This document shows, piece by piece, positions 1 through 27,527 of a stretch of 40,690 nucleotides of DNA. A program made the position numbers and the translations under genes. Each line of letters begins with the position of its first letter. Position 1 is the first letter of the stretch. The notes beneath the pieces were generated by a model that was given only the letters and a program-made list of their open reading frames with translations, ran no database searches and was not told the DNA's origin. The stretch is from Bacteroidia bacterium (GTDB lineage: Bacteria; Bacteroidota; Bacteroidia; Chitinophagales; Saprospiraceae), in contig JAUIEA010000019.1 of NCBI GenBank assembly GCA_030429045.1, positions 1 through 40,690 on the forward strand. Direction: 5' to 3'.

Positions 1-477
1 CTCGATCCTGACCCTGATTTCTCATTCAACATTTCTGATTTCTCATTTTCTTTCCAATGGCGACTAAAGTCACCATTACAATAAATCGTCCTTTGGTCTC
101 ACAGGCTCACAGTCCTCGACCCTAGAAATTCCAAAAATCAAATACCAAATTCAAATAACCAATACCAAAAAGATATGCAGATGCTCTTCGTCACTCCGCC
201 TCTCAGTCACTTCGTCTTATTTTGGCAGGAAACGAAGCGGCAGTTATCCTCCCCGGCAGCTAAAGCAGCCGATACAAGAGACATGCCTCAGCTTCTCACG
301 GTCGCAAAGTCCTCGATCCTGACCCTGATTTCTCATTTTCTTTCCAATGGCGGCTGAAGTCACCGCTACAACTTTCTTCCTTCGGTCTCTTCAACTCAAA
401 GTCTAAGCGTCTCAGCTTCTCACAGTCCCAAAAGTCTCCATTTCGCCTACCTTTGCGGCTTGTTCAACACACAGACC
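1..477. repeat. Intergenic region with degenerate direct repeats
   Basis: No convincing gene is seen. Positions 1-100 and 312-389 are diverged copies of one element: both begin CTCGATCCTGACCCTGATTT, share TTCTTTCCAATGGCG, and end TCCTTYGGTCTC. The left copy carries an extra 21 bases (27-47) that duplicate its own GATTTCTCATT word. In the aligned core (48-81 against 338-371) the four differences are all transitions. A third partial copy of the opening word lies at 111-122. The middle (120-175) is A-rich and low in complexity. The element may continue to the left of the window. Confidence 0.6.
448..455 (+). promoter_or_regulatory. Candidate Bacteroidota -7 box (TACCTTTG) upstream of ftcD
   Basis: TACCTTTG matches the TAnnTTTG -7 consensus of Bacteroidota exactly. 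Transcription would begin near 460, which favours the ATG at 478 over the TTG at 460 as start codon. No clear TTTG -33 element is found about 19 bases upstream, so the call is tentative. Confidence 0.35.
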
Positions 478-2169
478 ATGGCAACCTTGCAACCCCTTAT
501 CGAATGTGTCCCGAATTTTTCCGAAGGCCGTGACCTGGCCGTGATCAAACAGATCACGGACGCCATGGAAGCAGTAGAAGGGGTCAAGCTCCTGGATGTC
601 GATCCCGGCAAGGCCACCAACCGGACGGTCGTGACGATCGTCGGGCATCCGGAACCGGTTATCGAAGCCGCATACCGGGGCATCGCCAGGGCAGCCGAGT
701 TGATCGACATGAACAAGCACCAGGGCGAACACCCGCGCATGGGTGCCACCGATGTCTGTCCCCTCATTCCGATCGCCAATATTTCCATGGAAGAGGCAGC
801 GGAATATGCCCATCGCCTGGCAAAACGCGTTGGTGAGGAATTGCAGATCTCCTGCTTCATGTACGAATCCGCGGCCACGTCAGTCAAGCGTCGCAATCTG
901 GCCACTATCCGATCGGGTGAATATGAAGCCATGGCCAAGAAGATCCAGGAAGCCGAGTGGAAGCCGGACTATGGCCCCACCACCCTCCATCCACGTGCTG
1001 GCGTAACAGCCATCGGGGCACGCGACTTCCTGATCGCCTATAATGTCAATCTGAATACCACGTCCGTTCGCCGGGCCAACTCCGTCGCCTTTGACATCCG
1101 CGAACAGGGGCGGGTCAAGCGGGAGGGTGATCCCATCACCGGTCCTGTGGTCAATGGTCCGGATGGGGAACCCGAGCGGATCCCGGGCACCTGCAAATCT
1201 GTCAAGGGCATCGGTTGGTATATCGAGGAATATGGTCAGGCCCAGGTCTCCATGAATATCACCAATATCCGGGACACCCCCCTGCACATGGCCTTTGAGG
1301 CCTGTGTAGAATCGGCGCACAGCCGGGGTATGCGGGTCACCGGGTCGGAACTGGTCGGACTGGTTCCCAAGCAGGTGATGCTGGATGCTGGTCGATACTT
1401 TCTACACAAACAACAGCGGTCCACGGGATTGCCAGATGAGGAGATCATCCGTCTGGCGGTCAAGACCATGGGCCTGGATGAACTGGGGCCGTTTGACATC
1501 CGCAAGAAGATCATCGAATACCAGTTGGAAGATGCCAGCGACAGCCGACTGGTACGCATGGATCTACGGCAGTTCTCGTCCGAAACGGCATCGGAGAGCC
1601 CGGCCCCCGGTGGCGGTTCCATCTCTGCCTATGTCGGCGCATTGGGTGCTGCCCTGGGGGGTATGGTGGCCAACCTGTCGGCACACAAACGGGGATGGGA
1701 TGATCGCTGGGAAGAATTTTCCACCTGGGCTGAAAAAGCCCAGGCCATCCAGGATCGATTGTTATTCCTGGTAGATGAAGACACCCGGGCATTCAATGGT
1801 ATCATGGATGCATTTGGATACCCCAAGAATACCCCGGAAGAAAAGGCCGCACGCACTGCTGCGATCCAGGCGGCTACCCGCCACGCTATTGCCATCCCGC
1901 TCCAGGTCATGGAACAGGCCAGCGCGGCATTGCCCATCCTCAAGGTGATGGCTCGGGACGGCAATCCCAACTCTGCCAGTGATGCTGGCGTCGGAGCGCT
2001 ATGTGTCCGGGCTGCCGTACAAGGGGCCTGGTTGAATGTGCGGATCAATGCCGGGGGCTTCAAGGACAAGGTCTGGCTGGATACAGTGCTGGCCCAGGGT
2101 CAGAAACTGGCAGACAATGCCGATCAGATGGAGAAGGAGATCCTGGAGATCGTCAAGGGGCAGATGTAG
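478..2169 (+). CDS. ftcD: Bifunctional glutamate formimidoyltransferase / formimidoyl-THF cyclodeaminase
   Basis: The 563-residue protein joins the two activities of FTCD. It transfers the formimino group of N-formiminoglutamate (from histidine breakdown) to tetrahydrofolate, then deaminates the product to methenyl-THF. The N-terminal transferase starts with ECVPNFSEGRD (residues 9-19). It carries the conserved HQGEHPRMGATDVCP segment (81-95), which holds the proposed catalytic histidine. The C-terminal cyclodeaminase (about 365-560) has the PAPGGGS turn and the NPNSASDAGVGA motif. Length and order match full-size FTCD, so this is an intact fusion rather than separate ftcD and fchA genes. The ATG at 478 is chosen because homologues begin just before the ECVPNFSEG segment and a -7 box lies at 448; a TTG at 460 would add six residues. 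No hutH, hutU or hutI is nearby, so the rest of the pathway lies elsewhere. Confidence 0.93.
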   Translation: MATLQPLIECVPNFSEGRDLAVIKQITDAMEAVEGVKLLDVDPGKATNRTVVTIVGHPEPVIEAAYRGIARAAELIDMNKHQGEHPRMGATDVCPLIPIANISMEEAAEYAHRLAKRVGEELQISCFMYESAATSVKRRNLATIRSGEYEAMAKKIQEAEWKPDYGPTTLHPRAGVTAIGARDFLIAYNVNLNTTSVRRANSVAFDIREQGRVKREGDPITGPVVNGPDGEPERIPGTCKSVKGIGWYIEEYGQAQVSMNITNIRDTPLHMAFEACVESAHSRGMRVTGSELVGLVPKQVMLDAGRYFLHKQQRSTGLPDEEIIRLAVKTMGLDELGPFDIRKKIIEYQLEDASDSRLVRMDLRQFSSETASESPAPGGGSISAYVGALGAALGGMVANLSAHKRGWDDRWEEFSTWAEKAQAIQDRLLFLVDEDTRAFNGIMDAFGYPKNTPEEKAARTAAIQAATRHAIAIPLQVMEQASAALPILKVMARDGNPNSASDAGVGALCVRAAVQGAWLNVRINAGGFKDKVWLDTVLAQGQKLADNADQMEKEILEIVKGQM

Positions 2170-2514
2170 AGAGTGGAGGAGGTTATGAGTGGAGGAGTTG
2201 AGGAGAAAGTCAGTCATCAAATGAGCTTTCCAATTCAGGGCCGAAGTCCGAATACAGAACGCCGAAAACCTATCCAACCATAGCCAGATTTGGTTCTACC
2301 ACACTCAAGCCCCGAGCACTCGGGGCGAAAAGCAGGTTAATCATGCAGGCTTGACCTCCCTAGTTTAGAAGGAAGTCTAGGAAACATGCTGCATGCAAAA
2401 TCACCAGGCATTCTTAATACTGCAGGGATAGGTCAGGCCATTACCTTTTACCTTCTCCATATGGAGTCATGTCCAGTTATAACGTGCTGTGCGAATAGCA
2501 ATTCATGATTTCGC
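2170..2514. other. Intergenic gap with palindromes
   Basis: No gene or known RNA is recognised in these 345 bases between two convergent genes. The gap begins with a small repeat of GAGTGGAGGA (2171 and 2188). It holds a near-perfect GC-rich palindrome at 2309-2326 and a 12-base perfect palindrome, CTCCATATGGAG, at 2455-2466. The GC-rich palindrome has no T-tract, so a terminator role is possible but not shown. Confidence 0.5.
2309..2336. repeat. GCCCCGAG-CA-CTCGGGGC hairpin element, copy 1
   Basis: Arms GCCCCGAG (2309-2316) and CTCGGGGC (2319-2326) are perfect reverse complements around CA. They are followed by GAAAAGCAGG. Two relatives of the same hairpin, each followed by GAGCAAACGCAGG, occur at 35361 and 35850. 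This suggests a small dispersed element rather than a chance terminator. Confidence 0.5.
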
Positions 2515-3762
2515 CTACACCATCTCCAGGGCCTGGCCGATCACATGCACCAGATCCCGACTGTTTTCCACCCCGACTGAGATACGGATCAGGTTGGGGG
2601 TGATGCCGATCTCGCGCTGATGCTCGGGTTTCAATCCGGCATGGGTCATGGTTGCCGGATGTTCAGCCAGCGACTCGGTACTGCCCAGGCTGACGGCCAG
2701 CTTGATCATCTTCAGGTTGTTCAGAAAACGGAATGCTTCTGCTTCACCACCTTTGACCTCGAAGGAGACCATGGCCCCCGGTGAGCTGCATTGCCGCTTG
2801 TATATGGTGTATTCAGGGGTATTCTCCGGGATCAGCCCCAGGTAGTAGACATTCTCAACCTTGGGATGATCCTTCAGGTATCGAGCCACAACGCCGGCAT
2901 TTTCGGCCTGTTGTTCCATTCGTACTTTCAGGGTTTCCAGGCTGCGAAGGAGGAGCCATCCGGTCCATGGACCGGCCATATTCCCCAGGAAGGTGCGCAG
3001 GGTTTTGACACGGGTGATCAGCTCACTGTTCCCCAATACGGCTCCGGCGATGACATCGCTGTGTCCACCGATATACTTGGTCGCAGAATACATGACCAGG
3101 TCGGCTCCGTGATGAAGGGGGTGTTGCCACAGCGGCCCCATATAGGTGTTATCCACTGTGACAAGTACGCGTTCTTCATCGTCACTGAAATGGTTGGCCA
3201 CCTCGCGACACATCTGCAGATCGAACAGGTCATTGGTCGGGTTGGCCGGGGTCTCGATCAAGATCAATCGCAGGCGATCCGCACGGCCACTTTCGTTCAC
3301 CATCCGGATCAGGTCTTCCTTGTTTTGATCCGGTCGGAACCCGATACCCTGGATATTGTACTTGGGAAGGACTTCCAGGATAAAATGTTCTGTTCCGCCA
3401 TAGACCGGCATACTGTACAACAGCAAGTCGCCGGGATGGAGGAATTCCAGGAGAACCGTGGTGATCGCAGACATTCCACTTTCAAAGACAGCGGCAGCTT
3501 CTGCTTCATCCCAGAGGCACAGGCGTTCTTCGAGGATCTGCAGATCCGGATTGTTGAGCCGGCTGTAGATCAGTCCGGGCACTTCTCCCGGGCGGGCCTC
3601 CCGCAAGCCATAGGCGACTTCAAAGAAGGCTTTTCCATCTTCAGCAGATTCGAAAACGAAGGTCGAGGTCTGAAAAATCGGGCATTTGACAGCCCCTTCG
3701 GAAAGTTCCGGCTTGTAGCCGTGAGACATCATCAGGGATTCCGGTGAAAATTTGTGACTCAT
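2515..3762 (-). CDS. Cys/Met metabolism PLP-dependent enzyme (cystathionine gamma-synthase family)
   Basis: The 415-residue protein is a fold-type I PLP enzyme of the trans-sulfuration family (cystathionine gamma-synthase/lyase, methionine gamma-lyase, O-acetylhomoserine sulfhydrylase). The cofactor lysine is K229 in YSATKYIGG. The aspartate that pairs with the pyridine nitrogen is D204 in VDNTYMGP. The YSRLNNP segment (66-72) and the phosphate-binding ESGMSAI loop (94-100) are also present. Sequence alone does not settle the substrate, because members of this family interconvert cysteine, homocysteine and methionine derivatives. The subgroup seems to be the one usually named only 'cystathionine gamma-synthase family protein' in Bacteroidota. 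It is monocistronic, convergent with ftcD and divergent from the dipeptidase gene. Confidence 0.9.
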   Translation of the reverse strand: MSHKFSPESLMMSHGYKPELSEGAVKCPIFQTSTFVFESAEDGKAFFEVAYGLREARPGEVPGLIYSRLNNPDLQILEERLCLWDEAEAAAVFESGMSAITTVLLEFLHPGDLLLYSMPVYGGTEHFILEVLPKYNIQGIGFRPDQNKEDLIRMVNESGRADRLRLILIETPANPTNDLFDLQMCREVANHFSDDEERVLVTVDNTYMGPLWQHPLHHGADLVMYSATKYIGGHSDVIAGAVLGNSELITRVKTLRTFLGNMAGPWTGWLLLRSLETLKVRMEQQAENAGVVARYLKDHPKVENVYYLGLIPENTPEYTIYKRQCSSPGAMVSFEVKGGEAEAFRFLNNLKMIKLAVSLGSTESLAEHPATMTHAGLKPEHQREIGITPNLIRISVGVENSRDLVHVIGQALEMV

Positions 3763-3891
3763 GATCGTTCAGCTGGTTCTAGTGCATAGATAGTCATCAG
3801 AATGCAACCCGGGAGTGATCCAGGTCAATATTGCCATGATCCTGATCGATTTCGAACAAATGGTCTGAAAAAGAGGCCCTACCTTCGTCAG

Positions 3892-5121
3892 ATGCGTTTT
3901 TGTCTTTATTTCCTGTTGATTTGCATGACTCCGGGTATGGTATCCTCACAATCGGGCATTGACACCCAAGACTCTCTCTGGCAGAAAGCGGATGAATTGG
4001 CTCATCGCTTCATCCTCCTGGACGGGCACGTAGATCTGCCCTATCGGATGGGGGTGAAGAACTTTCGTCCCACCCGGGAGCTCCTGGGTATTCCGATCTC
4101 CTCGGACAAGGGTGATTTTGACTATGAACGTGCCCGAAAAGGCGGCCTGGACGTACCCTTCATGGCCGTCTATGTTCCTGCCGACTATCAAAAAAGCGGG
4201 GGTGGAAAGGCGTTTGCCGATCAGACCATTGATATGATCGAATCCATTATTGCAGCCCACCCCGACAAATTTGCCAAAGCACCGACCGTCCGCTCCGTCC
4301 GCGATAATTTTGCGAAAGGCCTGATGTCCTTACCCATGGGAATGGAAAACGGCGCGGGTATCGAAGATGACCTGGCCAACCTGCGGCATTTTCATCGACG
4401 TGGTGTGCGGTATATCACCCTGACACACAGTAAAGACAATCTGATCTGCGACTCTTCCTATGATGATGCGCATACCTGGAACGGATTGAGTCCCTTTGGC
4501 GCAAAAGTGGTCGCAGAAATGAACCGTGTCGGGATCATGGTGGATATTTCCCATGTGTCGGATTCCGCATTTTATGATGTACTCCGGATCAGTACCGCTC
4601 CGGTGATCGCATCACACTCCTCTTGCCGGACCTTCACGCCGGGATGGGAGCGGAACATGAATGACGATATGATCCGGGCCCTGGCCAAACATAACGGCGT
4701 GATCCAGATCAATTTCGGATCGACCTTCCTGGATAAGACGGTGGACAAGGCCAACAGAGAAAACCGAAAAAAACTGGATGCACTCCTGGAGAAAAAGGGA
4801 TTGACAGCCCAGGACCCGGAGGCAAAAGCCCATATCGACGCCTTCCAGAAGAAGAACCCGACGCTCTTTTCGGATGTGGAAATGGTGGCCAAACACGTGG
4901 ATCATGTGGTCCAACTGGTCGGTGTCGATCATGTCGGGTTGGGTTCAGACTTTGACGGTGTCGGGGATAGCCTGCCAACCGGACTGAAGGACGTCTCCCA
5001 ATACCCCAATCTGATCTACCTGTTGTTGAAAAAGGGATATTCAGAACAGGATATTGAAAAAATTTGTTCGGGCAATGTCCTGCGGGTGTGGTCCGAAGTG
5101 GAACGCATTGCGGCCCGATAA
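3892..5121 (+). CDS. Secreted membrane-dipeptidase-like metallopeptidase (family M19)
   Basis: This is a renal-dipeptidase-type zinc peptidase of 409 residues that hydrolyses dipeptides, probably in the periplasm or attached to the envelope. The dinuclear metal site is visible: H46 and D48 in DGHVDLP, bridging E152 in GMENGAGIEDD, H221 in DISHVSD, and H242 in ASHSSCR. The RNMNDDMIRAL segment and GSDFDG are also typical. The N-terminus MRFCLYFLLICMTPGMVSSQ is a signal peptide. I start at the ATG at 3892 for this reason; an in-frame ATG at 3802 would add 30 residues that hide the signal. The gene lies 36 bases upstream of the EVE-domain gene on the same strand and could be co-transcribed with it. 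Confidence 0.92.
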   Translation: MRFCLYFLLICMTPGMVSSQSGIDTQDSLWQKADELAHRFILLDGHVDLPYRMGVKNFRPTRELLGIPISSDKGDFDYERARKGGLDVPFMAVYVPADYQKSGGGKAFADQTIDMIESIIAAHPDKFAKAPTVRSVRDNFAKGLMSLPMGMENGAGIEDDLANLRHFHRRGVRYITLTHSKDNLICDSSYDDAHTWNGLSPFGAKVVAEMNRVGIMVDISHVSDSAFYDVLRISTAPVIASHSSCRTFTPGWERNMNDDMIRALAKHNGVIQINFGSTFLDKTVDKANRENRKKLDALLEKKGLTAQDPEAKAHIDAFQKKNPTLFSDVEMVAKHVDHVVQLVGVDHVGLGSDFDGVGDSLPTGLKDVSQYPNLIYLLLKKGYSEQDIEKICSGNVLRVWSEVERIAAR

Positions 5122-18290: not shown

Positions 18291-19769
18291 ATGATCCGTA
18301 TCACCATTGTATTACTCCTCCTCCTTTCCCAAGGTTTGCATGCCCAGACCACTGCACCCACTCACTGGTGTGGCACGCAAGATGGCAAGGTTGCCTGGCT
18401 GGAGGACTATCAGGCCAATCCCATGGCATTCCCCCGTTCAGTAGACACCCTGTACATCCCGGTGACCATCCATCTGGTGGGTACATCCGGTGGCGCCGGG
18501 TATTTTGGATTGCCGGATCTGCTGGATGCGTTCTGCACACTGAATCGTGATTTTGAGAACGCCAGCATTCAATTCTACCTCGAGGGAGGCATCAGCTATA
18601 TCCCGAACAATACCTACTACAACCATAATTTTGATACCGGATCCGAGATGATGGCGGCCTACAATGTCCCCAATACCATCAACTGTTATATCTCGAATTC
18701 ACCTGGCGAAAACCTCTGCGGGTACAGTGCCTATAACCTGGGGGTTGCCCTGGCCAAAAATTGTATCCAACCGGACGACCACACCTGGTCACACGAACTC
18801 GGACACTACCTGTCCCTGCCCCACCCGTTTTATGGCTGGGAAGGGTATGATCATGACTATGGCAAACCAGCACCCGAACAGATCAATGGCAATCTTGTAG
18901 AGCGGGTGGACGGACTGAATTGTAATGTAGCGGGCGATGGCTTCTGCGACACGCCACCCGACTATCTGAATTATCGCTGGCCCTGCAATACCCTGGGCGA
19001 GAGTATCGTCCTGCAAACGGATCCACTTGGCGTGAAACTCAAGTCCGATGGAAGTTTCATCATGTCCTATTCTTCGGACGAGTGTTCCTACCGTTTTTCA
19101 GACGAACAGATCGCGGCAATGCAGGCCAATGCCCTGTCTGACAAGGCTGAATTCCTCTATGACCAAACGGTTCGGTATCCGGTCTATGCCGGTCCTGTGG
19201 TACCTGTTTTCCCGGGCGAAGGCGACACCATCTCCACATTCAATGAGATCCCTTTCGTGTGGGAGCCCATGCCCGAAGCCACCCATTATATTGTGGAATA
19301 TTCCATCAATCCCAATTTCAACACAGCTGTATTTCAGTTTATGACCGTAGGGAATTCATGGGTCAGCAGCAAGCTGGTGAAGAACAAGACGTACTACTGG
19401 CGCTTACGCCCCTACAATGCCCAGCACACCTGTGAGGCCTATTCAGATATTCACACCTTTACCACGGGTGACCAGACCACCACCGCCGTGGATGATCTGA
19501 TCGATGGACTGTCTGCTGTCCATATTCTACCCAACCCGGTACAGTCAGGGGCTCCCCTGGGCCTTCAGATTTCCAGTGAGCGCAGCATGGAGTTGAACAG
19601 TGTTTTGATGACCCCGGGTGGACAGGTTGTCGGCCGGTATCAATGGCGGCTGGAAAGAGGCCAAACGAGGGTGCAGATCGACACACCAGGATTACCCTCC
19701 GGCATGTATGTCCTGAAACTGAGCACGGCGGACGGTCAGATGGTCCGCAAAGTGTTGATCGCCCGATAG
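18291..19769 (+). CDS. Secreted M43-like zinc metalloprotease with T9SS sorting domain
   Basis: The 492-residue exported protease has a signal peptide (1-19), then a pappalysin-like catalytic domain. Zinc ligands are in SHELGHYLSLPH: H168, E169 and H172, with the third ligand H178. The usual glycine of HExxHxxGxxH is serine here. A Met-turn is seen in FIMSYSSDECSYRFS, and cysteines at LNCNVAGDGFCDTPPDY match the M43 disulfide region. A fibronectin type III-like module follows (about 310-392; FVWEPMPEATHYIVEYS to YYWRLRPYNA). The protein ends with a T9SS type A domain (HILPNPVQSG to LPSGMYVLKLST). It is the first of four adjacent surface genes on this strand. Confidence 0.88.
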   Translation: MIRITIVLLLLLSQGLHAQTTAPTHWCGTQDGKVAWLEDYQANPMAFPRSVDTLYIPVTIHLVGTSGGAGYFGLPDLLDAFCTLNRDFENASIQFYLEGGISYIPNNTYYNHNFDTGSEMMAAYNVPNTINCYISNSPGENLCGYSAYNLGVALAKNCIQPDDHTWSHELGHYLSLPHPFYGWEGYDHDYGKPAPEQINGNLVERVDGLNCNVAGDGFCDTPPDYLNYRWPCNTLGESIVLQTDPLGVKLKSDGSFIMSYSSDECSYRFSDEQIAAMQANALSDKAEFLYDQTVRYPVYAGPVVPVFPGEGDTISTFNEIPFVWEPMPEATHYIVEYSINPNFNTAVFQFMTVGNSWVSSKLVKNKTYYWRLRPYNAQHTCEAYSDIHTFTTGDQTTTAVDDLIDGLSAVHILPNPVQSGAPLGLQISSERSMELNSVLMTPGGQVVGRYQWRLERGQTRVQIDTPGLPSGMYVLKLSTADGQMVRKVLIAR

Positions 19770-19800: not shown

Positions 19801-22197
19801 ATGCCCTTTTGTTACCCTTCGTTCTTTCGGATCATGTCCTCCCTGCTCTTCATTGCCGGAATGGGATGGGCATCATCCAGTTTTGCCCAGTCGGTCATCT
19901 ATGTCGATCAAACGGCTGCAGGTGCCCAGGATGGCACCTCCTGGGGAGATGCATTTGCCGACTTGCAAGCGGCGTTTGATGCAGCCTCCGCCGGTGATGA
20001 GATCTGGGTGGCACAAGGGATCTATGTACCCGGAGATACCTCCAAGGCCAGATATATCCTGGACAAGGACCTCTCCCTGTACGGTGGTTTCGCCGGTGAT
20101 GAAACGGCGCTGGATCAGCGCGACCCGGTTACGTATCAGACTGTGTTGTCGGGTGATGTGCAGGGAGACGACCTCCCGGGCGATGTGTTCAATTTTCGCT
20201 GGGATAATCTGTATACCATTCTGGAGATCACCCAGCAGGTGACCGGAGCGGCGGTCATTGACGGCCTTGCTTTTCGGGGTGGGCATTCGGTGGGCGACAA
20301 TTTTCTCCTCCCCAATCAATGGGGCGGGGCTATTTTCTGCCAGGGAGCCCCTTTGATCCAGCACTGCAGGTTTGACGATAATTATGCGGATAAACGAGGT
20401 GGAGCCATCTATGTGCAATCCGACCAGGCGAATGGATTATTGATCCGGAATTGCCAATTCGGATCGAACGTTTCAAATGAAGATGGTGGTGCCATATTTG
20501 TCAATCTGACGGATGTTTCCGGGGTATTGATAGAGGACTGTGTGTTCTCAGACAATCGTGCGGACCGACGAGGCGGTGCGGTTTCTGTGTACAATGCCAA
20601 CACCCATTTGAAGGGAAATCAGTTCTTGACCAACCAGTCTCGCCGAACCGGTGGAGCGGTCCATGTGCAGGCATCCTTCAACTTTCTGGAAAACACGATC
20701 GACAGTTGCTATTTTGAAGCGAACACAGCGACGCGAGGAGGGGCGCTATACCTGGTCTCTTCCAGTGTGTTCGGGTCTGTGGAGAATCATTTTTCGGTGA
20801 CACGATCCGATTTTCAGTTGAATGCAGCCACGGATATGACCAATAATCCCGATGATGCGATACGCGGTGGAGCAATCGTTCTGGAATCAAATGTCAATGC
20901 CAGTGAGACCTCTGCTACTATAGGGGAATGCACATTTTCAGAAAATGTTTCGGAAGAAGACGCTGCCGTTCTACACGTTCAATTTGATGGTCAGGAGTCC
21001 AGTCTGACTTACAGGAATAATGTCGCCAGTTTTAACCAATCCGGCAGGAATGGCCCCTTGACGATCTCCGTTACCAAACTCGGAGAAGCGGTTATCCGAT
21101 TAGACAGCTGTGGCTTCACATCAAATAACTCGATCACTAGCGGGTCGGCTGGTATCACTGTAGAAGCCAGTGACAATGCCATTGCTGATATCCATTTCTT
21201 CCAATGCATGATCAAAGGTGGAGAAGCCTTGAAGAATAGTGGGCTATCAATAAAGTCTTCCGGACAGGCCAGTGTGAAAGGGATCATTCAAAATTGTCGC
21301 TGGAGCAATAATGTGGGCGATGGATGCATTTCCATTGAGGATGAGAATGATTTGATGGATCTGCTCTTTCAAAACGTGCTATTGGAAAGTAACGGTAGCT
21401 GGGGAAATTCAATCGTCTCTCTATCTGGAGCAGGAGGGGATACCTCGAGTATTCCTCGGTTTCGATTCGAAAACATATTGATGCATCACCAAGCCGGAGG
21501 GAACGTCCTTTGGGAAATGGAGGGAATCCGAGCGGAGATTCTGAATATGACCTGTGCTGAAAATGAATTGCCAGGATTTCAAATTGGTCTAAATGCTGAA
21601 TTGGTCTTGCAAAACTCTATTCTGGCCAACCTGGGAGAAAAGGAACTTGTCTTCATAGATAAGACCGGATCTATTCTGACGAGTGGGGGTAATATCATCA
21701 ATGACAATTCATTTGTTGGATGGATGGGATCTTCCGATTTGGAGAATACAGATCCATTGTTCCTCGGAAGTGAGGACTTTGCACTCACAGCGGCCAGTCC
21801 GGCCATCGATTTTGGCGTCCAACCGGATTCCATCTACCCGTATGACCTGGCCGGAAATGCCCGCATCCAGGGCAAGGGAATTGATGCCGGAGCCTATGAA
21901 AGTCCATTTACCAGTGGCCTAGTTTCGTTGGAAACAACACCATTGGACCTCTGGCCAAATCCGGCAGCCGGGCAGGTGAATATCTCCCTGCCAGCGGGCT
22001 GGACCGGTGCAAAAGAAATCCGGATCATGGATACGTTCGGGGCCGTTTACCGGACCTGGTCTCCCGGCAATACTCCCGGTTCCATGCCCATTCCACTGAG
22101 CCTCGATGGCCTTCCCACAGGTACTTTCCATGTGGAAATGATCCATGCCAGCGGTGACCGGGCAACAGGCACCCTGATCCATCAGGCCGGGCATTGA
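19801..22197 (+). CDS. Right-handed beta-helix surface protein with T9SS sorting domain
   Basis: A 798-residue protein with a signal peptide ending SSSFAQ, followed by YVDQTAAGAQDGTSWGDAFADLQAAFDAA. This opening is typical of parallel beta-helix proteins of the 'choice-of-anchor Q' group. Most of the length (about 60-640) is made of short helical rungs with repeated RGGAIYV, DGGAIFV, RRGGAVSV and RTGGAVHV turns. These resemble polymorphic outer membrane protein repeats. The region before the tail has DPLFLGSEDFALTAASPAID and GIDAGAYES, also typical. The last about 80 residues form a T9SS domain (DLWPNPAAGQV to LPTGTFHVEM). A second ATG at 19834 would shorten the signal. Likely an adhesin or glycan-binding protein; no catalytic residues can be assigned. 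Confidence 0.85.
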   Translation: MPFCYPSFFRIMSSLLFIAGMGWASSSFAQSVIYVDQTAAGAQDGTSWGDAFADLQAAFDAASAGDEIWVAQGIYVPGDTSKARYILDKDLSLYGGFAGDETALDQRDPVTYQTVLSGDVQGDDLPGDVFNFRWDNLYTILEITQQVTGAAVIDGLAFRGGHSVGDNFLLPNQWGGAIFCQGAPLIQHCRFDDNYADKRGGAIYVQSDQANGLLIRNCQFGSNVSNEDGGAIFVNLTDVSGVLIEDCVFSDNRADRRGGAVSVYNANTHLKGNQFLTNQSRRTGGAVHVQASFNFLENTIDSCYFEANTATRGGALYLVSSSVFGSVENHFSVTRSDFQLNAATDMTNNPDDAIRGGAIVLESNVNASETSATIGECTFSENVSEEDAAVLHVQFDGQESSLTYRNNVASFNQSGRNGPLTISVTKLGEAVIRLDSCGFTSNNSITSGSAGITVEASDNAIADIHFFQCMIKGGEALKNSGLSIKSSGQASVKGIIQNCRWSNNVGDGCISIEDENDLMDLLFQNVLLESNGSWGNSIVSLSGAGGDTSSIPRFRFENILMHHQAGGNVLWEMEGIRAEILNMTCAENELPGFQIGLNAELVLQNSILANLGEKELVFIDKTGSILTSGGNIINDNSFVGWMGSSDLENTDPLFLGSEDFALTAASPAIDFGVQPDSIYPYDLAGNARIQGKGIDAGAYESPFTSGLVSLETTPLDLWPNPAAGQVNISLPAGWTGAKEIRIMDTFGAVYRTWSPGNTPGSMPIPLSLDGLPTGTFHVEMIHASGDRATGTLIHQAGH

Positions 22198-22273: not shown

Positions 22274-22798
22274 ATGCGTCAAATCCCCTTTCTTCGGAGA
22301 GTAATCCCGGCTATGTTCCTCCTCTGTGGAATGGCTGGTGTGATCCATGCCCAATCGATTGACCAACGGGTTATTGCCAGCAGTGGCCGGGAGGTCAAGC
22401 AGGGGCCAGTCCAACTATCCTTCACCATCGGTGAACTGGCGGTTGCGTCTGTCCAGTCCGATACCCTGTATCTCACTCAGGGCTATCAGCAGGTCTTTCC
22501 TCAGGGGTCGACACCCATTCATTCAAACCCGCTGACCTTTGATCTATTGGTCTTTCCGAATCCCTTTTCGGATATCGTCACCCTGCGTTGTTCGGGTCAG
22601 CCTCCGCAGGAGCCTGTACGCCTGACCTGGACAGATGTCGCAGGTCATCTGGTATCCGAACAGACCCTGCACCTGGTGGCGGGTGTGGATCACACCCTAG
22701 ATCTACAATCACTGCCGGCAGGTTTGTACCACATCCAACTCTCCACGGGTCCGGAAGAAGTTCTGACTTCCTTCCAGATGATCCATGTCTTACGTTAA
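22274..22798 (+). CDS. Small T9SS-sorted protein preceding the fibre gene
   Basis: The 174-residue protein is nearly all export signals. It has a signal peptide (to VIHAQ) and about 60 residues with IASSGREVKQGPVQLSFTIGE and YLTQGYQQVFP. A T9SS type A domain follows (LVFPNPFSDIVTLRCS, LTWTDVAGHLVSEQ, LPAGLYHIQLS). The short 'SFTIGE...LTQGYQQ' module recurs in Bacteroidota next to large tail-fibre or collagen-like proteins. It is followed by such a gene here, with 34 bases between stop and preferred next start. I infer a partner role at the surface, such as anchoring or folding the fibre. No enzyme motif is visible. Confidence 0.82.
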   Translation: MRQIPFLRRVIPAMFLLCGMAGVIHAQSIDQRVIASSGREVKQGPVQLSFTIGELAVASVQSDTLYLTQGYQQVFPQGSTPIHSNPLTFDLLVFPNPFSDIVTLRCSGQPPQEPVRLTWTDVAGHLVSEQTLHLVAGVDHTLDLQSLPAGLYHIQLSTGPEEVLTSFQMIHVLR

Positions 22799-22832: not shown

Positions 22833-25832
22833 ATGAACACCAAGCACCTCATCCTACTCCTGTCAGTTGTTCTGTTGCCACTATTTGCCATGGCCCAGGC
22901 TCCGCAGTTGCTGAATTTTCAAGCTGTTGCCCGGAATGCAGCCGGCGAAGTCCTGAATGATAAAACCATTTCGGTCCGTCTCAGCATCTCCGACAACACA
23001 CCCAACGGACAGGTGGTCTACCAGGAGACACATACGGTCCTGACCAACAAACTGGGCATGTTCAGTCTGCGGATCGGAGGAGGTACGGTGCAGTCGGGTA
23101 GCATGAATAGCATTGATTGGAGCAACGGAACGAAATATCTCCGTACAGAGATCGATCCGAATGCGGGGTCTGCCTATGTCGATCTGGGAGCCACGCCCCT
23201 GGTCAGTGTACCCTATGCGCTTTATGCAGCCCAGGGAGGAACGCCATATGTCGGCGGTAGCGGTATCCAGATCACCGGAACAACGATCACAAATACCGGT
23301 GACCTCAATCCATCCGATGATGTGGTGCAGTCCACCCTGTTCGATGGCGATGTGACAGGCACGTTCAACAGCCTTCAACTGAAGCCTGGAAGTGTCGGGA
23401 CCCCGGAAATAGCCGATCAGAGCATCACCGGGATCAAGCTGCAATCGATGGGTGCCAACACCGGGGAAGTGTTGAAGTGGAACGGGTCGACATGGTCACC
23501 GTCCATGGACCTGGTGGGCAGTGGTGGAAACAACTATACTGCCGGAACAGGAATTGCCATCAACGGGAATGTCGTCAGTGCCCTGAATGACAATGTACTC
23601 TGGAATGCCCTGAAACTATATGGCCGGAATATTTCTGCAGCTGCCCCGACTGCGGGGCAGGTGCTCAAATGGACCGGCACGACCTGGGCGCCCCTGGATG
23701 ATGAAACCGGCAACGGAGGCGGAAATTACACGCCAGGTCTGGGGATCAGCATCAATGGGACCGTCATCGGTGCATTGGCCAATGATCCTTTGTGGAATGC
23801 CAATCGATTGCAGGGGAATGAAGTGGCTGCCGGAGCACCGACGAATGGCCAGGCCCTGGTGTATAACCAGGCGGCCAGTCGCTGGGAAGCCCAGACGCTG
23901 ATCGGTGGCGGTGGAGTAGGGGGATCAGGAACGCCCGGTTACCTGCCGAAATGGAATGGCACCAACTCCCTGACCAATTCGATCTTTTATGAGGCTGCCG
24001 GAAATGTCGGTATCGGGATCACCACGCCCCTGGCAAGATTGCATATCAATGGCCAGACGGATCAACCGCAATTGATGGTTCAGGCCGCCAATAACCAAAG
24101 CAATGCACAGCCCTTGATCCTGACACGAAAAGCAGATGGAACGGTCCTGTTTGGCATCCACTCCGATGACTCGAAAAATATATTCTTCGGTCTGGAAGCG
24201 GGAAAAAGCAATCAATTTGTCAACACCTTGTCCGGTGAACAAAACGTATTTATCGGTCGAGCTTCCGGCAAATCAAATACCACAGGTTCGGATAATACAG
24301 CTGTGGGCTACCAAAGCCTGCTGTCCAATACCCACGGTGGAAGTAATACGGTTCTTGGCTCCTATGGCCTGACCACCAATACGACCGGAGATCACAATAC
24401 AGCCATCGGGCCATATACCCTCCAACTCAACACAACCGGACGATTTAACACGGCTTTGGGTTCCGGTACGCTATCCCTGAATTCGGAGGGAAGCTACAAT
24501 ACGGCCGTCGGCGGACTTTCACTGAATGCCTGTGGTCTGGGTGAAGACAATATCGCAGTCGGTCACAGGTCCATGTTCAACAGCTATAACGGATTCAGGA
24601 ATATTGCCATCGGAAAGGATGCCATGTACAATTCCAATACAGGTGACCATAATATTGCCATCGGAACCGGGTCACTGAACAAAAACAATGGCAGGAGTTA
24701 TCAAATCGCCATTGGTGATTCGACCCTGTTTCACAACAGCCAGGGATTTGCAGACCCGTCCCATTCCCAGGCCAACACGGCAATTGGATCCAAGTCCATG
24801 TTTGAGAACACCTTGGGTTCACACAATACTGCCGTGGGGTTCAAGTCGATGTACGGGAATGTCGAGGGTGACCACAATGTGGGTATAGGTGCATTTGCCT
24901 TGTATACCAATGGGAGCGGAAACGAGAATACTGCCCTGGGTTATCAGGCGATGTATCACAACTATTCGGGTATACAGAATACCGGGATCGGAAAAGAAGC
25001 CCTGATCAACAATACCCTCGGAAGCCGGAACAGTGCCGTAGGTTATCGGGCCTTATCCAACAATAACGAAGGAACGGACAACACGGCGATGGGCTACCAG
25101 GCCCTGGATTCCAACCAGTATGGACAGGGGAATTCCTCCTTTGGGGCCTCTTCACTTGGCAGTAATTCTACTGGAAACTACAATACGGGGATCGGTTCCA
25201 AGGCACTTCAGTTCAGTACCGTTTTTTCTGGCAATACGGCCCTGGGCTATAATGCCGGAGGAGATAATGTGAACGGGAACAACAACACCTTCATCGGATA
25301 TGAAGCCAAAACCAATCTGTCCAACTATTCCAATTCTTCTGCACTGGGATACGGCGTGGTGATCACCGGTTCCAATCAGGTTCGGATCGGAAATGGACAG
25401 GTGACCTCGATCGGGGGATTTGCCAACTGGACGAACATTTCTGATCGTCGGGTCAAGAAGGACATTGAAGAGTCGGTCCACGGACTGGACTTCATCCTTC
25501 GATTGCGGCCCGTGACTTACCATCTGGATCTGGAGGCAGCTTCTCGCATCCAGGGGGTGTCCGGTACTGAACAATCAGACCAGGCCGGCAAGGAGGCTAT
25601 CCGGTATACCGGATTCATCGCCCAGGAAGTGGAAATCGCCGCCCGGCAAAGTCAGTATGACTTCAGTGGTGTAGACAAGCCCCAACATGATCAGGACCTG
25701 TATGGGATTCGTTATGCTGAATTTGTCGCACCCCTGGTGAAGGCAGTCCAGGAACAGCAGAAGATGATCGAAACCCAGGGTGAGATGATTCGCCAGCTGC
25801 AGGCAGAGCTCGAAGCACTGAAAAAGCAATAG
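22833..25832 (+). CDS. Tail-fibre-like surface protein with YadA-head-like repeats and S74 autochaperone
   Basis: The 999-residue protein has a signal peptide (NTKHLILLLSVVLLPLFAMA). A beta-rich N-domain follows (PQLLNFQAVARNAAGEVL to VSVPYALYA, 25-150). Next are repeated linker units containing GQVLKWTGTTW and LWNA. Then come about 20 copies of a 17-residue motif NTAxGyxxLxxNxxGxx (24177 to about 25380), similar to the trimeric YadA head. The C-terminus is the S74 intramolecular chaperone of endosialidase: SDRRVKKDI with S870 and K875 spaced as in the known Ser/Lys cleavage pair, then LRPVTYHLD and FIAQEVE. It ends in a coiled coil (VKAVQEQQKMIETQGEM). The start at 22833 places the signal sequence first; an upstream ATG at 22803 is possible. 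It is likely a trimeric, self-cleaved surface fibre. Confidence 0.88.
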   Translation: MNTKHLILLLSVVLLPLFAMAQAPQLLNFQAVARNAAGEVLNDKTISVRLSISDNTPNGQVVYQETHTVLTNKLGMFSLRIGGGTVQSGSMNSIDWSNGTKYLRTEIDPNAGSAYVDLGATPLVSVPYALYAAQGGTPYVGGSGIQITGTTITNTGDLNPSDDVVQSTLFDGDVTGTFNSLQLKPGSVGTPEIADQSITGIKLQSMGANTGEVLKWNGSTWSPSMDLVGSGGNNYTAGTGIAINGNVVSALNDNVLWNALKLYGRNISAAAPTAGQVLKWTGTTWAPLDDETGNGGGNYTPGLGISINGTVIGALANDPLWNANRLQGNEVAAGAPTNGQALVYNQAASRWEAQTLIGGGGVGGSGTPGYLPKWNGTNSLTNSIFYEAAGNVGIGITTPLARLHINGQTDQPQLMVQAANNQSNAQPLILTRKADGTVLFGIHSDDSKNIFFGLEAGKSNQFVNTLSGEQNVFIGRASGKSNTTGSDNTAVGYQSLLSNTHGGSNTVLGSYGLTTNTTGDHNTAIGPYTLQLNTTGRFNTALGSGTLSLNSEGSYNTAVGGLSLNACGLGEDNIAVGHRSMFNSYNGFRNIAIGKDAMYNSNTGDHNIAIGTGSLNKNNGRSYQIAIGDSTLFHNSQGFADPSHSQANTAIGSKSMFENTLGSHNTAVGFKSMYGNVEGDHNVGIGAFALYTNGSGNENTALGYQAMYHNYSGIQNTGIGKEALINNTLGSRNSAVGYRALSNNNEGTDNTAMGYQALDSNQYGQGNSSFGASSLGSNSTGNYNTGIGSKALQFSTVFSGNTALGYNAGGDNVNGNNNTFIGYEAKTNLSNYSNSSALGYGVVITGSNQVRIGNGQVTSIGGFANWTNISDRRVKKDIEESVHGLDFILRLRPVTYHLDLEAASRIQGVSGTEQSDQAGKEAIRYTGFIAQEVEIAARQSQYDFSGVDKPQHDQDLYGIRYAEFVAPLVKAVQEQQKMIETQGEMIRQLQAELEALKKQ
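24177..25380 (+). repeat. About 20 tandem 51-base coding repeats
   Basis: Within the fibre gene the motif N-T-A-hydrophobic-G-x-x-x-hydrophobic-x-x-N-x-x-G-x-x recurs with a 17-residue (51-base) period. One unit, beginning QIAIGDSTLFHN, has a 7-residue insertion, and the first unit is longer. The nucleotide copies have diverged strongly, so the array is old and not a recent slippage product. Confidence 0.85.
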
Positions 25833-25896: not shown

Positions 25897-25979
25897 TAGA
25901 TGACCTTGCCTCCCAGGGCGGAAGGTTTTGGCCACAACGGGCGCCCCGTATGCACGGGACCCGGACTGAGCGTGCCCCA

Positions 25980-26018
25980 GTAAAAGGGAAGGAGGCTCAT
26001 CGTACAGCCCCCTTTTAC
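25980..26018. terminator. Second hairpin GTAAAAGGG/CCCTTTTAC
   Basis: GTAAAAGGG (25980-25988) pairs with CCCTTTTAC (26010-26018). An inner GGCT/AGCC pair (25994-25997 with 26006-26009) can extend the stem. The CCCTTTT right arm on both strands makes a bidirectional terminator possible, though the T-run is short. Confidence 0.4.
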
Positions 26019-26144
26019 ACGACTCCACCACCAGCCTTGCCAACACCACACTTGAAACTGGAGGATCCAAAGGATGTCCGGTTTCAGATGGGCCAGTCAG
26101 CCAGCAGCCAAACGATACGTTCTGTATCTTGGATAAAAATCGTG

Positions 26145-27527
26145 ATGCGCTCCTTCTTTTGCCTCTTCTCGTGTCTGATGTTCCTGTCTGTCACGTCCAG
26201 TGATGCGACCAACTGGCCTGTAGGTCCCGGTCAGGCCTATATCAAACCCTCCCAGGTGGCCAATCTGGTGGCCAATGGAGACACAGTAACCATTGCAGCG
26301 GGTGAATACCTCGAAGATGTCGCTTTTTGGAAAGCAGATGGTTTGCTGCTGCGGGGAGAGGGTGGATTTGCCCACCTGAATGCCAATGGAAAAGCTGCTG
26401 GACAGAAGGCCATCTGGGTGATCCAGGGCGATGACATTACGGTCGAACAGATCGAGTTTTCCCACTGTACCGTTCCGGATAAAAACGGTGCCGGCATTCG
26501 CCAGGAAGGGGTCGATCTGACCGTGCGAAAGTGCTGGTTTCACCATAATGAGAACGGGATCCTTGCGGGGAATAATACCACCAGCACCATCCTGGTCGAG
26601 CACTCGGAATTCGGCTTCAACGGTTACGGGGATGGCTTCAGCCACAACATTTACGTGAACCACGTGGCCCGGTTCATTTTTCGGTACAACTATTCACATG
26701 ACAGTCAGATCGGACACCTGGTCAAGAGCCGGGCGCATGAGAATCACATCCTGTATAATCGCCTGGACAGTCAGGCCGGAAGCGGAGTGAGCTATGAGAT
26801 CGACCTGCCGAATGGAGGCCTTTCCTTTGTCATTGGTAACCAGGTTGTGCAGCCGGTCGACGGTCAGAACTCCGGCATGATGTCCTACGGTCTGGAAGGT
26901 CTTTCCAATCCCGGACCTCATGAGTGTTATGCCATCAACAACACCATGGTCAATGCCAAATCGGTGGGGCGATTTTTCAACCTGAATGCCTCTACCGCCC
27001 TGTTTAAGGGATGGAACAATCTATTGGTCGGCGGGGGCAACTTTGCCAATGGTCCCGTGCAGGTGATGGATACCGTCCGCAACCTGCGTGTACCAGATCC
27101 GGCAGATGCCGGTTTTGTGGACCTGGCTGGCATGGATTTACACATTGCAGAGGAATCGCCGGCGGTGGATCAGGGCCTGGACCCTGAATACGCCGGGACG
27201 GTCAACCTGTGGCCGACAGATGAGTATGTCCACCCGGTGGATCGGGTAGACCGGCCGGAACATGGACTTCTGGATGCAGGCGCATTTGAAGGCCCCCTGA
27301 TCAATTTAATGCCCCCTCAATCGCCACCACCGCATATCCAGTTGTGGCGGATGCATGGTTCTGTTGGTGCCAGGGGTATCGAGCAAGATGACCTGCTGGA
27401 GATCTGGTCGCTTTCCGGAGTGTTGCTTGGAAGGGGTCAAATCGCTGCCCTCAGATTGCCGGATATTCCGGTGATGATCTCCGTCTATCGGGGTGGACGA
27501 TTGCTGCGCTCACAGGTGTTGCTCTGA
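26145..27527 (+). CDS. Secreted right-handed beta-helix protein
   Basis: The 460-residue protein starts with MRSFFCLFSCLMFLSVTSSDA, a signal peptide; I choose ATG 26145 because the open frame before it is not protein-like. The body (25-390) is a parallel beta-helix with Asn- and Gly-rich turns (ILAGNNTTSTILVEHSEF, NHILYNRLDSQAGSGVSYE, YAINNTMVNAKSVGRFF). This is the fold of pectate lyases and other polysaccharide-active or binding proteins. Near the end LLDAGAFEGPL matches the choice-of-anchor Q type tail. The last about 45 residues (EIWSLSGVLLGRGQ to ISVYRGGRLLRS) look like a short T9SS C-terminal domain without the usual PNP strand. Catalytic residues cannot be assigned. Confidence 0.82.
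   Translation: MRSFFCLFSCLMFLSVTSSDATNWPVGPGQAYIKPSQVANLVANGDTVTIAAGEYLEDVAFWKADGLLLRGEGGFAHLNANGKAAGQKAIWVIQGDDITVEQIEFSHCTVPDKNGAGIRQEGVDLTVRKCWFHHNENGILAGNNTTSTILVEHSEFGFNGYGDGFSHNIYVNHVARFIFRYNYSHDSQIGHLVKSRAHENHILYNRLDSQAGSGVSYEIDLPNGGLSFVIGNQVVQPVDGQNSGMMSYGLEGLSNPGPHECYAINNTMVNAKSVGRFFNLNASTALFKGWNNLLVGGGNFANGPVQVMDTVRNLRVPDPADAGFVDLAGMDLHIAEESPAVDQGLDPEYAGTVNLWPTDEYVHPVDRVDRPEHGLLDAGAFEGPLINLMPPQSPPPHIQLWRMHGSVGARGIEQDDLLEIWSLSGVLLGRGQIAALRLPDIPVMISVYRGGRLLRSQVLL

Follow-up and report, generated by a model that had tools for sequence, protein, structure and literature searches.

We analysed a window of 40,690 nucleotides (positions 1 to 40,690 of contig JAUIEA010000019.1, assembly GCA_030429045.1) from a Bacteroidia bacterium of the family Saprospiraceae, and identified in it a gene for a phage-type surface fibre that stands next to a gene for a small protein with a sorting domain of the type IX secretion system (T9SS). 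Fibre and partner genes occur together widely, are tightly linked, and are passed on as a unit. Taken alone, the fibre is of a known sort, with a base like that of the MAT fibres of Bdellovibrio bacteriovorus and an S74 domain; what is new is the linked T9SS-sorted partner. With a probability of roughly 0.6, we suggest that the two proteins form a two-component T9SS fibre system: the N-terminal half of the partner would hold the base of the fibre and its sorting domain would supply T9SS export, anchoring, or both in trans. An earlier sequence-only reading of the fibre gene had not mentioned the adjoining partner or the resemblance between the N-domain and the Bdellovibrio MAT base. The features of the pair that carry the argument are as follows.

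22274..22798, + strand: small T9SS-sorted partner ('cargo'), 174 aa (open reading frame, ORF; Por_Secre_tail 35.5 bits, cut-off 27; TIGR04183 23.8 bits, cut-off 23)
22364..22501, + strand: N-half domain of the partner, about 50 aa, VIASSG...FTIGE...LTQGYQQ (our profile A3, 60.7 bits, the sequence itself being an A3 training row)
22550..22762, + strand: type A T9SS sorting domain at the C-terminus of the partner, residues 93-163 (Pfam)
22833..25832, + strand: fibre gene, 999 aa (ORF and translation; start backed by the relative L162)
22896..23234, + strand: N-domain of the fibre, residues ~22-134, a MAT-like base (6 copies in this genome; NF053851 35 bits, cut-off 60)

The partner gene ends 34 nt 5' of the fibre gene. 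Its product has a signal peptide, seen by eye and modelled as a helix over residues 5-26, and a Por_Secre_tail match over cut-off, and on these sequence features it is a type A T9SS substrate. The model of the sorting domain is closest to Ig-like DUF3244 chains (E = 3.4e-4); a T9SS substrate, chain 8glk_D, comes thirteenth (E = 3.1e-3, TMt 0.68). No Pfam family was found for the N-half. In the same genome, all six N-domain genes adjoin a protein with a partner-type N-half, five of them recognised by profile and the sixth (L030:5678-6172) by eye only, the profile missing it at E ≤ 0.1. The 13 other matches of the 174-aa partner in this genome begin at residue 55 or later and fall mainly in the sorting tail. 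Two variants of the partner were also seen: in L264:3929-5923 the N-half is followed by kelch repeats and a Fib_succ_major domain in place of the T9SS tail, and in L173:10322-10672 a partner-like ORF of 117 aa ends early, without a sorting domain.

The linkage can be read from either gene. On the fibre side, 69 N-domain matches of at least 75 bits outside this genome were fetched with their flanks. A small ORF with a T9SS-tail motif lies directly upstream of 45 of these 69 genes, compared with 3 of the 275 other ORFs of these loci, and a partner is detected for 60 of the 69 when same-strand profile matches anywhere in the locus are added (E ≤ 0.1). On the partner side, we took the 60 best matches in genomes outside our first sample, which held 296 genomes of the phylum. 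Fifty have an N-domain gene directly downstream and three directly upstream; four others lie at a contig edge and three have no N-domain gene, giving adjacency in 53 of the 56 testable cases, with a median of 18 nt between the last codon of the partner and the N-domain match. Co-occurrence follows the same pattern over 247 genomes of the class, with both domains in 140, the N-domain only in 16, the partner only in 2, and neither in 89. The Fisher value for this table, 1.5e-47, is only descriptive because the genomes are related and the set overlaps the first sample, in 9 of the 156 genomes with the N-domain and 6 of the 142 with the partner. No description of the pair was found in the open PMC literature, a body of text outside which subscription papers mostly fall.

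Fibre and partner divide the features of a T9SS substrate between them. No T9SS sorting domain was matched at E ≤ 0.001 in any of the 68 fibres of the fibre-side set (a contig end truncates two), and the window fibre has no profile match to type A or type B. These 68 are the products of the 69 N-domain matches less L125, which has no intact ORF, and three of them are under 200 aa. Sorting domains are present in 57 of the 60 partner ORFs, 56 matching type A and 1 type B (E ≤ 0.01). SprA is encoded in all 81 of the 296 genomes that have the N-domain (E ≤ 1e-4) and in all 38 that have the partner, versus 228 of the 296 overall, and the genome of the window has SprA, PorV-family proteins, and a T9SS sortase. 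By its sorting domain the partner is an ordinary type A substrate, and the departure from known T9SS substrates is that a large functional protein here lacks the sorting domain and a small linked protein carries one. That such a widespread fibre has no sorting domain of its own, and that the gene next to it usually encodes a small protein that does, points to export or anchoring in trans.

The sorting signal is also exchangeable. The partner N-half occurs on type B sorting domains in four loci, one on contig C67 of the same genome and the others in L180, L199, and L234. PorP/SprF proteins are carriers of type B substrates, and a PorP/SprF gene over the Pfam cut-off adjoins the type B partner in three of the four (C67, L199, and L234); none was seen beside the L180 partner within bases 1-4000. 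T9SS carriers have been described as PorV for type A and other proteins for type B, with type B substrates leaving together with alternative carriers that anchor them (PMC10994853). A constant N-half joined to an exchangeable sorting signal is what an adaptor would look like.

Partner and fibre also vary together. Over 91 pairs, training pairs included, distances between N-halves correlate with distances between N-domains at r = 0.815, and those between the longer sorting domains at r = 0.720. The corresponding partial correlations are 0.594 and 0.268, and the bootstrap range of the difference is 0.065 to 0.128. Re-pairing paralogues inside 17 genomes lowers the N-half correlation, with 2 of 5000 re-pairings reaching the observed value. 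The excess of the N-half over the sorting domain hints at contact with the N-domain.

We propose the following course of events for the two-component system. The fibre would trimerise and fold with the aid of S74, which would then cut at S870 and bare the repeat shaft as the mature tip. In the periplasm, the partner N-half would bind the fibre N-domain, and the sorting domain would take the pair through the SprA/PorV translocon, fix it on the surface, or do both. With a type A domain, surface fixing might follow sortase processing; with type B, the pair might stay on its PorP/SprF carrier. The exposed tip would then bind a glycan or another surface. More tentatively, and at somewhat less than even odds, we suggest a two-partner type IX secretion, in which a signal-less trimeric fibre of phage derivation passes SprA pre-assembled, carried by a small adaptor that would grip the base with its N-half and use its exchangeable sorting domain for both export and anchoring. 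If this is true, two-partner T9SS would be the standard means by which a large part of the phylum displays swappable phage-type fibres. The binding target of the MAT base is said to await further study (PMC10769870), and by analogy it may be a comparable adaptor. Two questions become testable, namely by which route large signal-less phage-like fibres reach the surface and what holds the MAT base, and the pair provides a genomic handle for many unannotated fibres and tips.

A number of observations weigh against this proposal. Partner-fibre binding is something we infer, and AlphaFold modelled the N-half at a pLDDT below 50 over residues 25-86 (alone, from an 8-row alignment); perhaps the domain folds as it binds, or perhaps the alignment lacks depth. 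Within-genome re-pairing lowers the sorting-domain correlation too, with 0 of 5000 reaching the observed value. Because both correlations fall, the pair, on these comparisons, moves as a unit, and linked inheritance may explain much of the co-variation. This weakens co-variation as a proof of binding, since within a genome each sorting domain, too, follows the fibre it is paired with. We looked for fusions of the two proteins and found no ORF that joins partner and fibre domains. The pairing also has gaps: 9 of the 69 N-domain genes have no detected partner in their locus (profile, E ≤ 0.1), 3 of the 60 best out-of-sample partners have no adjoining fibre, and the class sample has 16 genomes without a partner among its 156 with the N-domain. 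In the 296-genome sample, 48 of 53 partner matches are adjacent to an N-domain (42 upstream and 6 downstream), a count that is partly circular because profile A3 was built from partners chosen for adjacency; 20 of the 53 are A3 training rows, which leaves 33, of which 28 are adjacent. That count compared strong N-domain matches and hand-picked weaker ones and omitted a 68-bit match in genome G226, which would make it 49 of 53, and the chance expectation of 0.09 assumes 4-Mb genomes and a 6-kb span and is a scale only. Finally, secretion may be open to some proteins in which no sorting domain is recognised; in Flavobacterium columnare, deletion of a peptidase gene without a T9SS domain reduced extracellular proteolysis (PMC9936825).

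The partner might instead act as an anchor only, exported by T9SS to capture the N-domain outside the cell and tie to the surface a fibre that has crossed the outer membrane by another route. The linkage, the SprA distribution, and the swapping of signals fit this too, and Bdellovibrio MAT proteins, with a similar base, are displayed on the surface according to a paper in which the term T9SS does not occur (PMC10769870). However, no other export route is evident for the fibre, in which profiles found neither an autotransporter barrel nor a T9SS signal and inspection by eye found no lipobox, and we regard the account as unlikely, though one to be taken seriously. Another thought is that the two genes are co-regulated neighbours encoding independent surface proteins that are needed together and do not bind each other. 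Their separate signal peptides and genes, the lack of fusions, and the share of co-variation explained by linked inheritance would all agree with this. It would leave the fibre without an export signal, and it sits poorly with a pairing that is seen in many families, whose tips vary and whose sorting signals are swapped, and with the rarity of partner-positive genomes that lack the N-domain (2 of 142 in the class sample); we find it distinctly unlikely.

We also considered whether the partner could serve the N-terminal end of the trimer as a chaperone, plug, or register cap and be exported separately from a fibre that leaves independently. A small conserved domain that is not confidently folded when modelled alone might suit such a role. 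A cap needs no T9SS sorting domain exchangeable between types A and B, though, and this explanation seems to us very improbable. The two-component system, with the partner as export or anchoring adaptor, is thus the reading we prefer, and the remaining features of the fibre are set out below.

23235..24176, + strand: stalk between base and repeats, without a predicted fold (pLDDT mostly below 50 over residues 125-445)
24177..24242, + strand: first, longer repeat unit, 22 residues, 449-470 (phased repeat anchors)
24243..25385, + strand: array of 22 repeat units at 471-851, each of 17 residues apart from one with an insertion (block-of-10 pLDDT ~66-94 within 471-820)
24702..24773, + strand: repeat unit with a 7-residue insertion, residues 624-647 (phased repeat anchors)
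25440..25634, + strand: S74 intramolecular chaperone/protease domain (PF13884)
25440..25457, + strand: SDRRVK, codons S870 to K875, predicted catalytic dyad and cleavage site (conserved motif, known spacing)
25713..25826, + strand: C-terminal helix, likely the chaperone coiled coil (helix 961-998 in the AlphaFold model)

The start at 22833 assumed by the sequence-only reading is supported because the relative L162 has no ATG at the place of the upstream in-frame ATG (22785 here). With L163 (85% identity, from a Saprospiraceae metagenome-assembled genome, MAG), L162 (78%, from a Lewinellaceae MAG) is the closest relative of the fibre. That reading had called the fibre giant, which is overstated, as several relatives are longer than 999 aa; its description holds as regards the phage type of the fibre, the S74 chaperone, and the intact Ser/Lys dyad.

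The base is where the fibre resembles the MAT proteins. NF053851, the NCBIfam model of the MAT base, matches the window fibre at 35 bits, which is below its cut-off of 60, and matches none of the seven other window proteins scanned; among the 68 fibre relatives it matches 66 at E ≤ 0.001, an E-value criterion and not the 60-bit cut-off. A sequence search of the PDB with the N-domain gave no match at E ≤ 1. The tips of the 68 relatives are varied, with S74 in 23, collagen in 4, YadA_head in 3, C1q in 2, and Peptidase_G2, another autoproteolytic domain, in 2. Such varied tips on one base are the mosaic pattern described for MATs. Bdellovibrio has already been published with a phage-type trimeric surface fibre, and the MAT proteins of B. 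bacteriovorus are described as having a signal peptide, a beta-rich base of ~130 residues, a long shaft, and exchangeable tips, with S74 and SDxxxK in 13 of 21 (PMC10769870). The window-type fibres share with them the signal peptide, the likeness to the base model, the long shaft, the exchangeable tips, and S74 with SDxxxK, and differ in their T9SS hosts, the linked T9SS-sorted partner gene, the tip of 17-residue repeats, and, for the window fibre, the sub-cut-off base score.

Other fibres on this base were seen in passing. Three in the same genome (L029:3662-5131, L030:3387-5486, and L030:6179-8218) share by eye another tip, IWYASLEGPEAAAYERG...GLAVV..., for which no Pfam family was found. 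L028, at the end of contig C206, has the base, and L032, at the start of C106, has collagen and S74; they are probably one collagen-like S74 fibre gene split over two contigs. On contig C1 of genome G226, five N-domain matches cluster at ~2211700-2225100 (L123, L124, L126, and L131), three of them with S74 motifs, and only one partner-like match was seen there, at the edge of the cluster.

The distal half of the fibre leads to phages. Residues 470-999, covering the repeats and S74, match 51 of 50,697 phage records (tblastn, E ≤ 1e-10), with at least 80% of the query covered in 29, and the matching phages include those of Bacillus, Synechococcus, Staphylococcus, and Pelagibacter, among others. 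The best PHROG for the fibre is a tail-spike family (1.5e-80). The N-domain has no match in the same 50,697 records at E ≤ 0.001. Because the repeat and S74 half matches phage records and the N-domain matches none and resembles the MAT base, the fibre is, as judged from its sequence, a MAT-like chimera that joins a base of bacterial N-domain type to a repeat shaft of phage type and an S74 domain. It shares with phage S74/ICA tail fibres, spikes, and MyRF the S74 domain and the SDxxxK dyad, and with the 51 phage records the whole repeat and S74 half; unlike them, it has an N-domain without a phage match and a gene that stands among T9SS-tail genes rather than phage genes.

Self-cleavage is predicted at S870. 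The Peptidase_S74 match covers residues 870-934 (39.1 bits, cut-off 22) and begins with S870 itself, and S870 and K875 in SDRRVKK do have, as the sequence-only reading had noted, the spacing of the known autocleavage pair. The same spacing has been given for S911/K916 of endoNF and S587/K592 of MyRF (PMC8326128), and it fits the SDxxxK motif named for Bdellovibrio MAT proteins (PMC10769870). Profile matches in the PDB are the S74 tail fibre 6f45 (6.4e-15), MyRF 7dc3 (6.4e-8), and the neck appendage 3gud (0.0064). The dyad is not lost in the closest homologues, L162 having SDGRVKK and L163 SDRRVKK, and SDxxxK is kept in all 23 S74-bearing fibres among the 68 relatives (found with the S74 profile from alignment A5). 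In A5 itself, S870, D871, and K875 are invariant in 13 of 13 rows, window fibre included, which is no fair test of the dyad because the rows were picked for the S74 motif. Across 43 loci related to the whole fibre (L162-L204), 59 of 63 S74 ORFs keep SDxxxK; of the four without it, three are intact and one is a fragment that does not cover the site. Cleavage has thus probably been lost in a few of the more distant relatives. In two of the intact ORFs, L196:2194-3372 (SDKRFN) and L173:5344-7500 (SDGRIN), Asn replaces the catalytic Lys, possibly marking uncleaved versions of the fibre, and the third is L166:12309-15611.

Repeats of 17 residues make up the shaft. Lag-17 residue identity is 33.0% in the region 441-860, against a shuffle maximum of 14.9% (1000 shuffles, lags 5-39). 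Where about 20 strictly phased units had been counted, we found 22, with anchors from 471 to 835; the unit with a 7-residue insertion (24 residues, 624-647) and the longer first unit (22 residues, 449-470) are both borne out, and the final unit (835-851) is imperfect. The units had also been likened to YadA heads forming a left-handed beta-roll, which is unsupported, as the fibre has no Pfam YadA_head (PF05658) match at E ≤ 0.01 and the AlphaFold monomer resembles beta-helix proteins. The short N-x-A-hydrophobic-G repeats in a surface protein do recall the YadA heads of trimeric autotransporters, whose period is 14 residues. The fibre differs in its period of 17, the lack of a PF05658 match, which 3 of the 68 relatives have, the lack of a YadA barrel match, and the S74 domain near its C-terminus, which is its only Pfam match at E ≤ 0.01; no C-terminal membrane-anchor barrel was matched. 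A YadA-type autotransporter is thereby rejected on sequence.

The AlphaFold fibre model is a monomer from a 13-row alignment, confident over most repeats and poor in the stalk and S74. The top rows of a VIA-align search with model residues 534-857 are beta-helix tailspikes, lyases, epimerases, and adhesins, and YadA was not seen among the 50 matches listed. The closest is the Sf6 tailspike (Z 14.0, root-mean-square deviation 3.2, 244 residues aligned), to be read with the caveat that for repeats a Z below about 13 means little. The tailspike-type folds matched by the model are right-handed helices. By sequence, the repeats found nothing convincing in the PDB (best E 0.22, a putative acyltransferase). 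Foldseek with the whole fibre gave no PDB match at E ≤ 0.001 and 20 matches in a viral library, the best being an adhesin of Bodo saltans virus. Predicted proteins of giant viruses have repeats like those of fibre residues 470-830, as in the FhaB-like adhesin of Bodo saltans virus (36% identity, E = 3.4e-21).

The surroundings of the pair were examined for a prophage, and this origin was rejected. The partner, two genes upstream, and one downstream match no PHROG at E ≤ 0.001, and because these four tested neighbours match none, the fibre is not in an evident prophage. Besides the partner, the neighbours are as follows.

18291-19769: weak M43-like neighbour (T9SS tail scoring below cut-off in Pfam and above it with TIGR04183)
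19801-22197: PMP-repeat neighbour (T9SS tail match below the Pfam cut-off)
25950-27527: beta-helix protein downstream of the fibre

The order of the M43-like, PMP-repeat, partner, fibre, and beta-helix genes is kept in both L162 and L163.

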